This document shows, piece by piece, positions 29,338-46,720 of a DNA stretch of 52,531 nt. The DNA lies in contig JAURVQ010000046.1 of assembly GCA_030655395.1 (NCBI GenBank), positions 1 through 52,531 on the forward strand, read 5' to 3'. This DNA comes from Gammaproteobacteria bacterium (lineage in GTDB: Bacteria; Pseudomonadota; Gammaproteobacteria; SURF-13). The stretch's first letter is position 1. Each line of letters opens with the position of its first letter. The notes under the pieces were generated by a model that saw only the letters and a list, made by a program, of their open reading frames with translations, was not told the DNA's origin and ran no database searches. A program made the position numbers and the translations under genes.

Positions 29338-29367
29338 TTGACAAACGAAACGGCCCCGTCATACCAT
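29338..29367 (+). promoter_or_regulatory. sigma-70 promoter of the metallophosphoesterase/cytochrome operon
   Basis: A perfect TTGACA (29338-29343) is 18 bp from TACCAT (29362-29367). The roughly 85-bp leader after it is AT-rich and ends in AGGAGAG before the ATG at 29461. Confidence 0.72.
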
Positions 29368-29460
29368 CTAACGCGGTTAATATAAAACCTTAAGAAACAG
29401 GTAATTCGTTGATTAACCTCAGAAAATTAAAAAATCCACAAGCCAAATAGGAGAGTAACG

Positions 29461-30567
29461 ATGATGAATATCAGTCGCCGTAATTTCCTCAAGGGTGCAG
29501 CTGCCACGGGTGTCGGCAGCATTCTTCCCTTGAGCATGGTCACGGTCGAGGCCGAGGCAGGTGAGTCATTCACCTTCGCCTGGATCACCGACCAGCATCT
29601 GCAACTAATCTCTGGCGCCAAGTTCGTGAAGAGCTGGGACGACGGTTTCAAGCTGGCGATCAGCGAAGTAATGAACGCCAACCCGAAGCCCGACTTCTGC
29701 TACTTCGGTGGTGATCTGGCCCAGGCCGGCCTGAAGGCCGAACTGGATCACGGTATGGACATGTGGTCCAAGACCGGCCTCAAGGTTAAAGCCATTAACG
29801 GTGAGCATGACTACTTCCTCGACATGGGCAAGTCTTCACGCGCCGCCTACGGCATGCCCTCTGACAACTACACCTTCGAGCACAAGGGCGTGCAGTTCAT
29901 CATGCTGACCACCATCCGTGGTGCCGAGGACTGGGAAAAGCGTCACGCCAAAAACCCCCAGATCCGCATGAACGAGATGATGCGCATAGACAACTATGTG
30001 GATGGTTCTGCCTTCCGTCTGGGTCGTGAAGGCCTGGCCTGGTTGAAGAAGACCGTCGCCGGTCTGGACAAGAACAAGCACACGATCGTGTGCTCGCACT
30101 CCCCGATACAGAAGATCTACAGCGGCTGGAACTTCTGGACCGAGGACGCGGAAGAGATCCAGGCTGCGTTGAAGGACATCAAGCGTGTGACCGTGCTGTA
30201 CAACCACGTGCATCAACCTATGGCCAGCCAGAAGGGCAACATTGCCTTCTTCTCCAACTTCTCGACTGCTTGGCCGTGGCCGCATGTAAGCACCGTGGCC
30301 GATGCCACCATGTGCGGAGACGGCGCTTACAAGGGCTGCGAAAAGGGTTCGGACTACTACCCGAAACTGATCCTGCCTTATCATCGCGCTGACGTGGCCA
30401 ACTTCCGTGATGCGACCGGCTGGTCCATCGTCAACACGGATACCGGCGGCAAGTTCGACGTCACGGTCACCCAGTGGGGCGACAATCCCAAGCGTAATAT
30501 CACTTGGGATGGCCAGCTCAAGGAAGTGGGCGCCGCTCCTGCCACCAAAGCCCAGATACAGTACTAA
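29461..30567 (+). CDS. Tat-exported calcineurin-like metallophosphoesterase
   Basis: 368 residues. A twin-arginine signal (ISRRNFLKGAAATGVGS, residues 4-20) targets a folded protein to the periplasm. The metallophosphoesterase motifs appear in order: D44-Q-H46 (WITDQHLQL), G84-D85 (YFGGDLAQAG), G114-E-H-D (NGEHDYF), H213 (CSHSP) and H249-V-H251 (YNHVHQP). The usual Asn of GNHD is Glu115. It lacks the 5'-nucleotidase C-terminal domain of SoxB. Codon use looks biased as in strongly expressed genes. It is followed after 19 bp by a SoxA/TsdA-like cytochrome gene, which suggests the two proteins act together. Substrate unknown; a periplasmic phosphatase or a SoxB-like thiol-ester hydrolase are both possible. 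Confidence 0.85.
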   Translation: MMNISRRNFLKGAAATGVGSILPLSMVTVEAEAGESFTFAWITDQHLQLISGAKFVKSWDDGFKLAISEVMNANPKPDFCYFGGDLAQAGLKAELDHGMDMWSKTGLKVKAINGEHDYFLDMGKSSRAAYGMPSDNYTFEHKGVQFIMLTTIRGAEDWEKRHAKNPQIRMNEMMRIDNYVDGSAFRLGREGLAWLKKTVAGLDKNKHTIVCSHSPIQKIYSGWNFWTEDAEEIQAALKDIKRVTVLYNHVHQPMASQKGNIAFFSNFSTAWPWPHVSTVADATMCGDGAYKGCEKGSDYYPKLILPYHRADVANFRDATGWSIVNTDTGGKFDVTVTQWGDNPKRNITWDGQLKEVGAAPATKAQIQY

Positions 30568-30586
30568 GAGAATAAGGAGAAAACCT

Positions 30587-30997
30587 ATGATGATTCGTAA
30601 AAGCACATTGGCCGCGCTGGGCGCGTCCTTTATTCTGGGCCTTGCCGTGACGGCGTCAGCGCATGCCGAAGCCGTGAAAGACACTGCCAAGTGGGACAGT
30701 GAGTTCAAGGCTTCCGTAAAGCGCGGTGACGGTCTGTTCCACGGTGGAATCAAGAGCAGCAACGAGGTGGCCTGCGTTCAGTGCCATCCGGAAGGCTCTA
30801 ACACCCACGCGGAGACCTATCCCAAGTACCAGAAGCAGCTCGGCAAGGTGTCGCAGCTGTGGGAGATGGCCAACTGGTGCCTCGAGAACCCGCTGGAAAG
30901 CAAGCCTATGGCTGCGGACAGTCAGGACATGGTCGATTTGGTTGCCTACATGACCATGATCCGTAGGGGTTACAAGCTGGAAGCTGGCAAGTACTAA
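30587..30997 (+). CDS. periplasmic monoheme cytochrome c, SoxA/TsdA-like
   Basis: 136 residues. Signal peptide to about residue 27 (ALGASFILGLAVTASAHA). One heme site, CVQCH (63-67), in a context NEVACVQCHPEGSNTHAETY that resembles SoxA/TsdA cytochromes. The following LGKVSQLWEMANWCLENPLE places Cys98 where SoxA has its heme-ligating Cys (family knowledge); Met94 and Met108 are other possible ligands. The C-terminus MVDLVAYMTMIRRG matches the terminal helix of that family. AAGGAG precedes the ATG. It should pass electrons from a reaction involving the upstream Tat metallophosphoesterase, but that is inference. Confidence 0.85.
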   Translation: MMIRKSTLAALGASFILGLAVTASAHAEAVKDTAKWDSEFKASVKRGDGLFHGGIKSSNEVACVQCHPEGSNTHAETYPKYQKQLGKVSQLWEMANWCLENPLESKPMAADSQDMVDLVAYMTMIRRGYKLEAGKY

Positions 30998-31029
30998 TAT
31001 TTATTAGCTAGTCATTGCAGTAGTTCAAG

Positions 31030-31062
31030 ACGGCACTGTGGCAACACAGTGCCGTTTTTTTT
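31030..31062 (+). terminator. rho-independent terminator after the cytochrome gene
   Basis: ACGGCACTGTG-GCAA-CACAGTGCCGT is a perfect 11-bp stem with a tetraloop, followed by TTTTTTT. It closes the two-gene operon. Confidence 0.96.
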
Positions 31063-31112
31063 AAGACGGATACAAGAGAAAAGAGGCAAGAGAACAGGAC
31101 GTGACTTCTCGG

Positions 31113-44019: not shown

Positions 44020-45123
44020 TTACTGTGGTAAATTCGGGCTGGTGAGGGTCTTCATAAACACCACGAGGTCGGCTTTTTCCTGATCGGTGAGGCCGAGCGG
44101 GCGGAACAGTTTGTCCAGCATCGGATTCCTTTCATTACCCTTGTTGTAAAGATCAACCACGGCCTCCAGTGTGGGCAGGCTGCCATCGTGCATGTAAGGC
44201 GCGGTGAGGGCGACGTTGCGCAGTGTCGGGGTCTTGAAGCGGCCGACGTCCCTGGTGTCGTCGAGGCCGGTGGGTTTTATGGTGACTACCACGCGGCCCA
44301 ATTGCGAAATATCAGACCCCTGTAATACCGCTTCGTCTACGCTCTGGCCGCCGGCGACCGCACTGCGGAAGGCGTTGACTATCTCATACAGGCGCGGCTC
44401 GATCTTGCTGAAACCTACGCCCAGATTGTGGAAGTTGTTGTCGGTGAAGAGGGCGCTGGTTGGCCCGATGGTGTGACACAGGCTGCATTTCGCCTTGCCA
44501 CGGAACAGTTCCAGGCCGCGTATCGCTTCCGCGGAAAGCGCGCTCTTGTCGCCGCCATATTGATAACGGTCGAACGGCGAGTCGCCCGAGATCAGTGTGC
44601 GCTCGTAGCTCGCTATCGCCTTGGTGACATGCCCCATGCCAATCTTGCTGGCCTCAACGCCAAATACCGCCTTGAACTGTAGCGCGTAGATGCTGTCTTT
44701 GCGCACGATGGCGAGCAGGGCGTCGTGATTTTTAAGGCCGTGCTCGACGGAGTTTGTAAACGGATCTCCCGCCTGGCCTTCGAGGCTGGGACGACGACCG
44801 TCCCAGAACATTGTCGTGTAATATGCCGCATTGAGCACGGTGGGGGTGTTGCGCGTGCCCTTGCTCCTGTTGATTCCTTCACCCACCGGCAGGCTGTCGG
44901 CGAAGCCTTTGCCGGCGTCATGGCACTTGCTGCAGCTCACGGTGCCATCGCTGCTCAGGCGTTTGTCTTCAAACAAGGCCTTGCCCAGTGCGGCCTTCTC
45001 CGGCGTTTGAGGATTGTCGGCGGGTACGGGCACCGGTGGTAGACCTAATGGTTCCTTGGCCTGAGCCGCAGTGACACACAATACAAGAGCGGCGGCACAG
45101 AGCGCCGAGACAGCATGTTTCAT
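44020..45123 (-). CDS. periplasmic diheme cytochrome c peroxidase
   Basis: Reduces hydrogen peroxide with electrons from small cytochromes. 367 residues with a Sec signal peptide (AVSALCAAALVLCVTAAQA). First heme VSCSKCHDAGKGFADSLPVG, second heme CSLCHTIGPTS, plus FKTPTLRNVALTAPYMHDGS with the conserved Met/His region and NGLxFGRRPS-like FWDGRRPSLEGQA. It matches the CcpA/MauG family, more CcpA-like by length. The start is ATG 45123; upstream in-frame Met lies in repeat-like sequence. It is convergent with fba. Confidence 0.93.
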   Translation of the reverse strand: MKHAVSALCAAALVLCVTAAQAKEPLGLPPVPVPADNPQTPEKAALGKALFEDKRLSSDGTVSCSKCHDAGKGFADSLPVGEGINRSKGTRNTPTVLNAAYYTTMFWDGRRPSLEGQAGDPFTNSVEHGLKNHDALLAIVRKDSIYALQFKAVFGVEASKIGMGHVTKAIASYERTLISGDSPFDRYQYGGDKSALSAEAIRGLELFRGKAKCSLCHTIGPTSALFTDNNFHNLGVGFSKIEPRLYEIVNAFRSAVAGGQSVDEAVLQGSDISQLGRVVVTIKPTGLDDTRDVGRFKTPTLRNVALTAPYMHDGSLPTLEAVVDLYNKGNERNPMLDKLFRPLGLTDQEKADLVVFMKTLTSPNLPQ

Positions 45124-45391: not shown

Positions 45392-46720
45392 TTACAGGCG
45401 AGGTGCGCTGGGCGCCGGTAGCACGAGGAAGCCCGGATCGGTATCTTTGCCTCCGGCCATGATGAGCCCAAAGATGAATGCGGGCACGGCTGTCCCTTTG
45501 CGTCCATTGATGACGACGAGGGGCGTGCCCTCGATCTGGTATTTTTCCGCAAGCTCGATATCTTCCTTGAGCACGCTTGCAGTGGCGGGGGAGTTGACGC
45601 AGCCTTCAAGCGTCTTACGTCGTGCACTGTCGTCGTTCGCGGCAATGGTCCAGATGCGGTTTATGGTGAGACTGGCCTGGTCCTTGAACATCGCTGAGCG
45701 CACGCGGCTGAACTCAGGTGTGCCGCGCAGGCAGATCTGCACCTTGGCGGCGAGGCAGCTGATGCCGCCGGAGCTGCGCTGGATCGAGGGATTGCATTCG
45801 CTGTCGAGCGGGTAATGACGCGCCTCCTCGCTCCAGGTGCCCGGTGGTGTGATGCCGCGGATTTCTTCCAGCGCGGCCTCGAGATGCTGGCAGTGCGAGC
45901 AGCGGATGTCGGTCCACTCGATCAGATGTACCGGCGCGCTCGCCGGGCCGAAGCTGGTGCGTTTGGCATCGGCGGCGACTGCAATGGGTTTGGATTTGCG
46001 GTAGACGTCGAGCGAATCGCTGGTGGCCTGCTGGACGCCGGCGGGCAGCGAGTTTAAAAATTCCACCAGCGGACTGACCGGCGCCTTTGCGCTCGCTTCT
46101 TTCAGTACGGTGGATATCCTGGCGGTGCTCAAGTCCTCGCGCGGGGTATGCAGGCCGGGATAGATCAGCGCCGAGAGCGTCACGATCAGCACGGCGCCGC
46201 TTTTGAGCGTGGCCTGCAACCAGTGCGGAGCGCCGATGGAAAGGCGCGCATAGGATATCCACGCGGCGGCAGCGACCAGCACATAAAACAGCACGCAGGT
46301 GGGGCAGAAGGTCTGGATTGCGAAGCTGTAGCCGAGCAGCGAAAGCGCGATCAATGCGCCTGCTCCGGTAACGATACGCAAGGCCTGCACGGTGTCGTTC
46401 ATGGGGGTTCCCTTCGTGGTTTGATAACGCAACATGCCCGCGAGCACCAGTACCACGATGCTCCATGCCAGGCCCCAGCCCGCGATGGGCAGGCCGCTCG
46501 CCTGATGGACAGCATGGGCCAGCGGCGAGTTCCACACCCCGGCGCAGTCGAAGGTGGCGCTGAACGAGCATAGCGGCGCGGTGCCGCGCACGCGCAATAA
46601 ATAGAGCTCAACCCACTGGTAAGTCGTGAGCAGAATGCTGAGCGATGCCACGCCGATCAGAAACAGTGCGTTCAGCGCCTCACGGCCGCGCTGCGGTTGA
46701 ATAGCAGAAAGTGATGGCAT
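45392..46720 (-). CDS. VKOR-DsbA fusion (disulfide bond formation)
   Basis: 442 residues combining an integral-membrane vitamin-K-epoxide-reductase (VKOR) domain with a periplasmic thioredoxin-fold domain. The VKOR part (about 15-190) has four to five transmembrane helices, loop Cys51 and Cys59 (CSFSATFDC) with the conserved GVWNSPLA, and the quinone-site CxxC (TFCPTC, 139-142). The DsbA-like part (about 255-442) has WTDIRCSHCQHLEA (CSHC, 274-277), a cis-Pro loop GTPLVVING, and extra Cys. It would oxidise secreted proteins and pass electrons to quinone in one polypeptide, serving secreted Cys-containing proteins such as the cytochromes here. Confidence 0.92.
   Translation of the reverse strand: MPSLSAIQPQRGREALNALFLIGVASLSILLTTYQWVELYLLRVRGTAPLCSFSATFDCAGVWNSPLAHAVHQASGLPIAGWGLAWSIVVLVLAGMLRYQTTKGTPMNDTVQALRIVTGAGALIALSLLGYSFAIQTFCPTCVLFYVLVAAAAWISYARLSIGAPHWLQATLKSGAVLIVTLSALIYPGLHTPREDLSTARISTVLKEASAKAPVSPLVEFLNSLPAGVQQATSDSLDVYRKSKPIAVAADAKRTSFGPASAPVHLIEWTDIRCSHCQHLEAALEEIRGITPPGTWSEEARHYPLDSECNPSIQRSSGGISCLAAKVQICLRGTPEFSRVRSAMFKDQASLTINRIWTIAANDDSARRKTLEGCVNSPATASVLKEDIELAEKYQIEGTPLVVINGRKGTAVPAFIFGLIMAGGKDTDPGFLVLPAPSAPRL

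Follow-up and report, generated by a model that had tools for sequence, protein, structure and literature searches.

The window analyzed here (a stretch of 52,531 nucleotides) encodes a Tat-exported metallophosphoesterase (MPE) followed by a monohaem cytochrome c. These two genes form the core of a module in which a MauG/MbnH-class diheme enzyme is a frequent partner, since the pair stands without an operon-type diheme gene in a Microbulbifer genome (G454) and in G269, and none was found in two near relatives of the window genome (G001 and G003). The pair is tentatively favoured as the constant core of a periplasmic, peroxide-linked electron-transfer module, as a possible rather than a probable account of its function. 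Rather than a reduced system for sulfur oxidation, it seems to be a redox module that has escaped study so far, and no description of the MPE-cytochrome pair was found in the open-access literature searched. Tightly conserved with two or three genes across many phyla, the unit brings haem redox chemistry together with a phosphatase fold; should the mechanism proposed below hold, it would represent a redox-gated phosphoesterase, and the MauG-class diheme enzymes, for the majority of which no substrate is known to us, would gain a concrete and widespread partner for testing.

Both genes lie where the initial annotation of this DNA had placed them, separated by 19 nt (Table 1). The ribosome sites described there are visible as AGGAG and AAGGAG, the terminator after the pair was recognized as well and is a strong one, and the absence of other sox genes from the window agrees with the list of open reading frames. 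As for the pair having a promoter of its own, a TTGACA hexamer followed 18 nt on by TACCAT is indeed present, yet such a match is no better than chance (1 in the region vs. 1.2 expected); from the sequence, a promoter at 29338 is plausible.

Table 1. Features of the MPE-cytochrome pair and of the diheme enzyme gene in the window.
Feature	Position	Strand	Remarks
MPE (Tat-exported metallophosphoesterase), 368 aa	29461..30567	+	Tat signal, Metallophos profile, predicted fold
Monohaem cytochrome c, 136 aa, SoxA/TsdA domain	30587..30997	+	ATG 30587, stop 30997, Sec-type signal peptide
Sigma-70-like promoter match TTGACA-18-TACCAT	29338..29367	+	Weak: chance-level match
GEHD motif of MPE, residues E115-H116-D117	29803..29811	+	Glu replaces the usual Asn ligand of GNHD
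WPWP motif of MPE (W271, W273)	30271..30282	+	Present in MPEs of the cytochrome-paired family, absent from outgroup Tat MPEs
CxxCH haem-binding motif of cytochrome (C63-H67)	30773..30787	+	Conserved in 77/77
Cys98 of cytochrome NWC motif	30878..30880	+	Conserved in 77/77; aligned to TsdA chain position 96
Intrinsic terminator	31027..31064	+	14-bp stem (13/14 paired), 4-nt loop, T-run
MauG/MbnH-class diheme enzyme gene	44020..45123	-	Orthologue of the operon-type third gene, 13 kb from the pair

The same adjacent MPE and cytochrome genes were present in the near relatives G001-G004. When GTDB genomes were scanned with an alignment of seven MPE sequences, at least 568 relatives were recovered, of which the best 80 were kept. 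In these best 80 loci, which according to their record titles belong to Gammaproteobacteria, Alphaproteobacteria, Desulfobacterota, Myxococcota, Acidobacteria, Verrucomicrobia, Planctomycetes, Omnitrophota, Hydrogenedentes, Campylobacterota and others, the cytochrome was located directly 3' of the MPE in 76 cases (median gap 16 nt); this sample was chosen by MPE similarity and two peptide patterns, one of them with GEHD, and is not a measure of frequency. Frequency was addressed with an even draw of 398 Pseudomonadota genomes, where the MPE family scored above 300 bits in 3 genomes (next best 98) and the cytochrome family above 120 bits in the same 3 (next best 80), the two genes being adjacent in all of them. 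Co-conservation of both genes, on which the initial annotation had staked its proposal, is thus borne out, and the novelty that it saw in a two-gene system gives way to a widespread module usually made up of three genes.

This third gene emerged from neighbour clustering at the 80 loci, in which a CCP_MauG gene was placed directly upstream of the MPE; with the window diheme protein as query, it held this position in 73 loci, where it often overlapped the MPE and the gap had a median of 11 nt. The orthologue in the window, missed by the initial annotation, lies apart from the pair, as it does in G002 (where one contig carries it and the MPE at a distance of 16 kb), and none was found in the near relatives G001 and G003. 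In the phylogeny of diheme enzymes, the window sequence and those of G002 and G004 fell inside the operon-type enzymes, with support of 100/100 for the three and 97/92 for the node joining them with L061, L063, L109 and one long-branch row, several long branches leaving the deep order unsure. An in-genome paralogue (G000:C117) was rejected as the operon orthologue, as it grouped in a separate clade while the window gene lay inside the operon clade. A VKOR-thioredoxin (DsbA-like) fusion gene (45392-46720, minus strand) adjoins the window diheme gene.

The window diheme enzyme contains the CCP_MauG domain (PF03150, 182.6 bits), and the two CxxCH haem motifs were found in 71/72 and 72/72 of the operon-type enzymes. 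Its best NCBIfam model was MbnH (TIGR04039, 243.6 bits, below the cutoff of 362.85), MauG (TIGR03791) reaching 231.6 bits (below the cutoff of 443.85), and its best PDB match was the di-heme enzyme 6e1c, which we take to be MbnH. Tyr326 of the window enzyme stands opposite MauG Tyr294 (MauG chain numbering, with the CxxCH ending at His205). This position is occupied by Tyr in 71 of the 72 operon enzymes and by His in the other, while the cytochrome c peroxidases among the PDB matches have Met; a canonical cytochrome c peroxidase was therefore rejected as the identity of the third gene. The enzyme falls, by this Tyr signature and its best profile scores, in the same class as the MbnH of MbnH/MbnP and the MauG that acts on methylamine dehydrogenase, yet below both cutoffs, with a Tat MPE as partner in place of MbnP or preMADH, and with a partner pair that can exist without it; no mau genes recurred among the neighbours of the 80 loci. 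Moreover, Trp107, Gln117 and Glu127 repeat the 10/10 spacing of Ser257, Gln267 and Glu277 in BthA (PMC6405878), and Tyr ligation accompanies bis-Fe(IV) chemistry in both MauG and BthA (PMC6405878). BthA is always found near a putative phosphatase gene in Burkholderia, and oxidation of that phosphatase has been suggested (PMC6405878). This BthA/PhosA system is the nearest precedent for the module, as it also places a Tyr-ligated MauG-like diheme gene near a gene of the metallophosphoesterase superfamily (a putative purple acid phosphatase; PMC6405878). It differs in that no SoxA-domain cytochrome has been described in it; in the present module the diheme gene precedes the MPE, Trp is retained between the haems where BthA has Ser257, and the range of hosts extends far beyond Burkholderia. 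In one Kiloniellales MAG (L101:6870-9059), the diheme enzyme and the MPE are encoded by a single open frame of 729 aa; as the junction has cost the MPE its Tat signal, this is either a fusion or an assembly deletion.

The MPE scored above the cutoff for a Tat signal (PF10518, 25.7 vs. 22.7 bits), with the twin-arginine RR in 80 of 81 family members, and weakly above that of the Metallophos domain (PF00149, 23.3 vs. 21.5 bits). The predicted metal-ligand positions (D44, H46, D85, E115, H213, H249 and H251) were conserved in 81/81 sequences. All the motifs of dinuclear metallophosphoesterases (D-x-H, GD, GNH[DE], H, H-x-H) were invariant except for the change of Asn to Glu in GEHD, whose conservation is partly a selection effect, as one of the two patterns used for scanning contained it; GEHD was also found in outgroup Tat MPEs and was rejected as a mark of the cytochrome-paired family. 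The cytochrome-paired MPEs compared, in turn, had W158, W271 and, in all but one, W273, whereas the outgroup lacked W158 and WPWP, W271 alone being kept in L008; based on this pattern, the three residues could possibly form an electron path. A PDB search with the MPE sequence gave no match at E 10, and the cAMP phosphodiesterase model PRK11148 reached 34 bits (below its cutoff of 225). In the structure model (mean pLDDT 73.6, poor at residues 270-313), the nearest folds were purple acid phosphatase, Rv0805 and GpdQ, a 5'-nucleotidase-type structure first appearing at rank 39. With these three the MPE shares the predicted fold and the predicted metal-ligand pattern, and it departs from them in its identity of at most 17%, its Tat signal, GEHD in place of GNHD, WPWP and the cytochrome partner. 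The likeness to SoxB is limited to the superfamily, export and an adjoining SoxA-domain cytochrome: the MPE has 368 aa and other nearest folds, and it gave no match to the SoxB model TIGR04486, in line with the view already expressed in the initial annotation that the phosphoesterase is not SoxB. Four gammaproteobacterial loci (L067, L078, L081 and L086; 7000-9100) showed an MPE of the same family immediately downstream of genes for a radical SAM enzyme and a MerA-like FAD oxidoreductase. Apart from one 28-bit fragment, no cytochrome of the family was detected in these genomes, nor was an operon-type diheme enzyme, and the WPWP motif was retained; the two genes are possibly an alternative partner set of the MPE.

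The assignment of the cytochrome to the SoxA/TsdA domain family, also made in the initial annotation, was upheld. The protein, with a single CxxCH, matched PF21342 (SoxA-TsdA_cyt-c) with 45.9 bits (cutoff 27), its predicted structure matched 1h31, 4v2k and 2c1d with a probability of 1.00 each, and SoxA and TsdA ranked first both by sequence and by fold, ahead of any other cytochrome family. The SoxA model TIGR04484 gave 45.5 bits, below its cutoff of 110, and only over model positions 5-96 of 212. The counterpart of Cys98 in TsdA is chain position 96 (Cys123 of the precursor), which is the ligand of the catalytic haem (PMC4423706), and His/Cys ligation is accordingly predicted for the haem. 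In contrast, Arg119 of TsdA, which binds thiosulfate and is invariant in TsdA and SoxA (PMC4423706), corresponds to Met94 in 77/77 family cytochromes, Arg109 to Gln84 in 77/77 and Ser127 to Pro102 in 76/77. We infer that the cytochrome keeps the unusual His/Cys ligation and yet is probably not built for thiosulfate binding. In the alignment, the first, non-catalytic haem domain of Rhodovulum SoxA likewise has Met at the Arg119 position, which fits an electron-transfer role for the cytochrome. Compared with SoxA (of SoxAX) and TsdA, the cytochrome thus retains the PF21342 domain, the CxxCH, the Cys at the ligand position and the fold, and differs in having one domain and one haem, in its replaced substrate-binding arginines and in not being accompanied by SoxX, SoxYZ or SoxB.

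In the favoured mechanism, the MPE would be exported folded via Tat, presumably with its dinuclear metal site preloaded, and the cytochrome haem would have a low potential owing to its predicted His/Cys ligation. The cytochrome would act as the dedicated electron partner of the MPE and set the redox state of its metal site, which would control activity on a phosphoester; where present, the diheme enzyme would react with H2O2 and exchange electrons with the cytochrome or the MPE, the module thereby responding to peroxide. The identity of the metal, the flow of electrons and its direction, the substrate and catalysis by the MPE are the parts of this mechanism that we infer, set beside the observed adjacency, co-occurrence, domain content, residue conservation, diheme Tyr signature and nearby peroxide-type regulators. 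The electron-transfer module is favoured because of the adjacency in 76/80 loci, the occurrence of both families in the same 3 of 398 genomes and the diheme gene upstream in 73/80; the occurrence of W158, W271 and W273 in the paired MPEs compared and not, but for W271 in L008, in the unpaired outgroup and the cbb3-type oxidase neighbours in Rhizobiales plasmids also support it. The link to peroxide is suggested by Tyr in 71/72 diheme enzymes, the BthA-like W/Q/E spacing and the neighbouring regulators: an OxyR-like LysR gene was detected near the module in 12 loci (with the GHC-RD sensing-Cys motif in 10) and a PerR-like Fur gene in 5 loci from other phyla. This peroxide arm is not universal, since some genomes (Microbulbifer G454 and G269) have the pair and no operon-type diheme enzyme. 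Counting against the favoured module are the lack of a peroxide regulator beside the pair in the window and its presence in only ~17 loci, the diheme gene being displaced or, in G001 and G003, not found, the WPWP kept by the four cytochrome-less MPEs with radical SAM genes, and the weakness of the MPE model precisely at the WPWP region. The wording "redox-phosphatase module", offered as an alternative in the initial annotation, fits the data best. The more specific proposal, in which a phosphoesterase-fold protein would have its dinuclear site redox-controlled or redox-active through the His/Cys cytochrome and a Trp path, driven with peroxide by the MauG-class enzyme, and which would amount either to a phosphatase switched directly by electron transfer or to a tryptophan cofactor of a new, protein-derived kind, is doubtful, though worth entertaining.

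A rather unlikely alternative is that the diheme enzyme uses H2O2 to oxidize conserved Trp residues of the MPE (those of WPWP or others) into a protein-derived cofactor, the cytochrome serving as electron sink or source and the MPE being more a substrate than an enzyme. MbnP is a substrate of MbnH, the source of the best model score and, by our reading of 6e1c, of the best PDB match, and in four loci the diheme enzyme is replaced by a radical SAM enzyme, a class known for protein modification. The invariance of several MPE Trp residues, the Tyr ligand typical of enzymes that form bis-Fe(IV), the adjacency of the diheme gene and the MPE, and the published pairing of BthA with a phosphatase, PhosA having been proposed as its substrate (PMC6405878), all point the same way. 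However, the scores remain below the MbnH and MauG cutoffs, and in genomes without an operon-type diheme enzyme all these Trp are kept (MPE of L041/G454) or most of them (L124/G269), W158, W271 and W273 tracking the cytochrome rather than the diheme gene. W126 and W163 are missing from the window clade irrespective of the diheme gene, and both were rejected as its targets, as they do not track its presence.

Removal of H2O2 of the cytochrome c peroxidase type, with the cytochrome feeding a diheme peroxidase and the MPE as a separate passenger, is more unlikely still: the nearby peroxide regulators, the CCP_MauG domain and the good peroxidase activity of the Tyr-ligated BthA (PMC6405878) would be accounted for, but the constant pair is MPE and cytochrome rather than diheme enzyme and cytochrome, the diheme gene can be missing, its Tyr replaces the Met ligand of canonical enzymes, and a His/Cys haem would be unusual as a peroxidase donor.

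The minimal sulfur-handling system put forward in the initial annotation is mostly unsupported. In the form in which it would best survive, the MPE and the cytochrome would act on the SoxYZ carrier, replacing SoxB and SoxAX, which we regard as improbable. Many hosts of the module are sulfur oxidizers, and the cytochrome has both the SoxA/TsdA domain and the ligand Cys. The window genome encodes a true SoxY (147 bits) and SoxZ (G000:C120, L150:6784-7697), which are common to its family, and in every genome of that family searched PF21342 matched no protein other than the MPE-linked cytochrome, which leaves the reading some likelihood for this lineage; SoxB was absent from G000-G003 and G005, with no match to its model in the window genome at E 0.001 and none over cutoff in 8 genomes. 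However, SoxYZ is unlinked to the pair in the window genome, and the module does not depend on SoxY, since among 35 module genomes only 15 had SoxY over cutoff, 20 did not and 13 showed no match at all. The absence of SoxB, the fold neighbours of the MPE, the loss of the thiosulfate-binding Arg (together with the Gln and Pro replacements relative to TsdA; PMC4423706), the MauG-class partner and the peroxide-sensor regulators nearby also oppose a sulfur function. This corrects an easy annotation error, in which the cytochrome is called SoxA and thiosulfate oxidation is inferred from the name.

That the pair assists respiratory oxidases or methane oxidation by handling a metal, either copper or iron, is highly improbable: although the module is frequent in methanotrophs, MbnH relatives act in copper biology and cbb3-type oxidase, SCO and P-type ATPase genes adjoin the pair in Phyllobacterium, no metal-transport gene recurred among the neighbours of the 80 loci. 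A role in anti-phage defence was rejected, as there was no PADLOC match for the MPE, the cytochrome or the diheme enzyme.

Further arrangements were observed around these families. In the Rhizobiales plasmids L148 (5900-11000) and L149, the pair is followed by cbb3-type oxidase genes with no diheme gene nearby, and in L148 it is preceded by SCO and hemA. On a plasmid of Methylocystis bryophila (L147), the MPE has Leu in place of W273 and lacks its cytochrome, and at a distance of 56 kb lies an operon-type diheme gene (NZ_AP027150.1:114940-116034), the module being taken apart. A related SoxA-domain cytochrome (~70-80 bits, ~200 aa) was detected in most genomes of the Pseudomonadota family f87, which lack the MPE family. 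In addition, locus L010 (G004:C1:279482-282943) contains a different Tat MPE, with a GEND motif, which has an ECF sigma/anti-sigma pair on one side and a diheme cytochrome on the other, and is a second MPE-cytochrome association.
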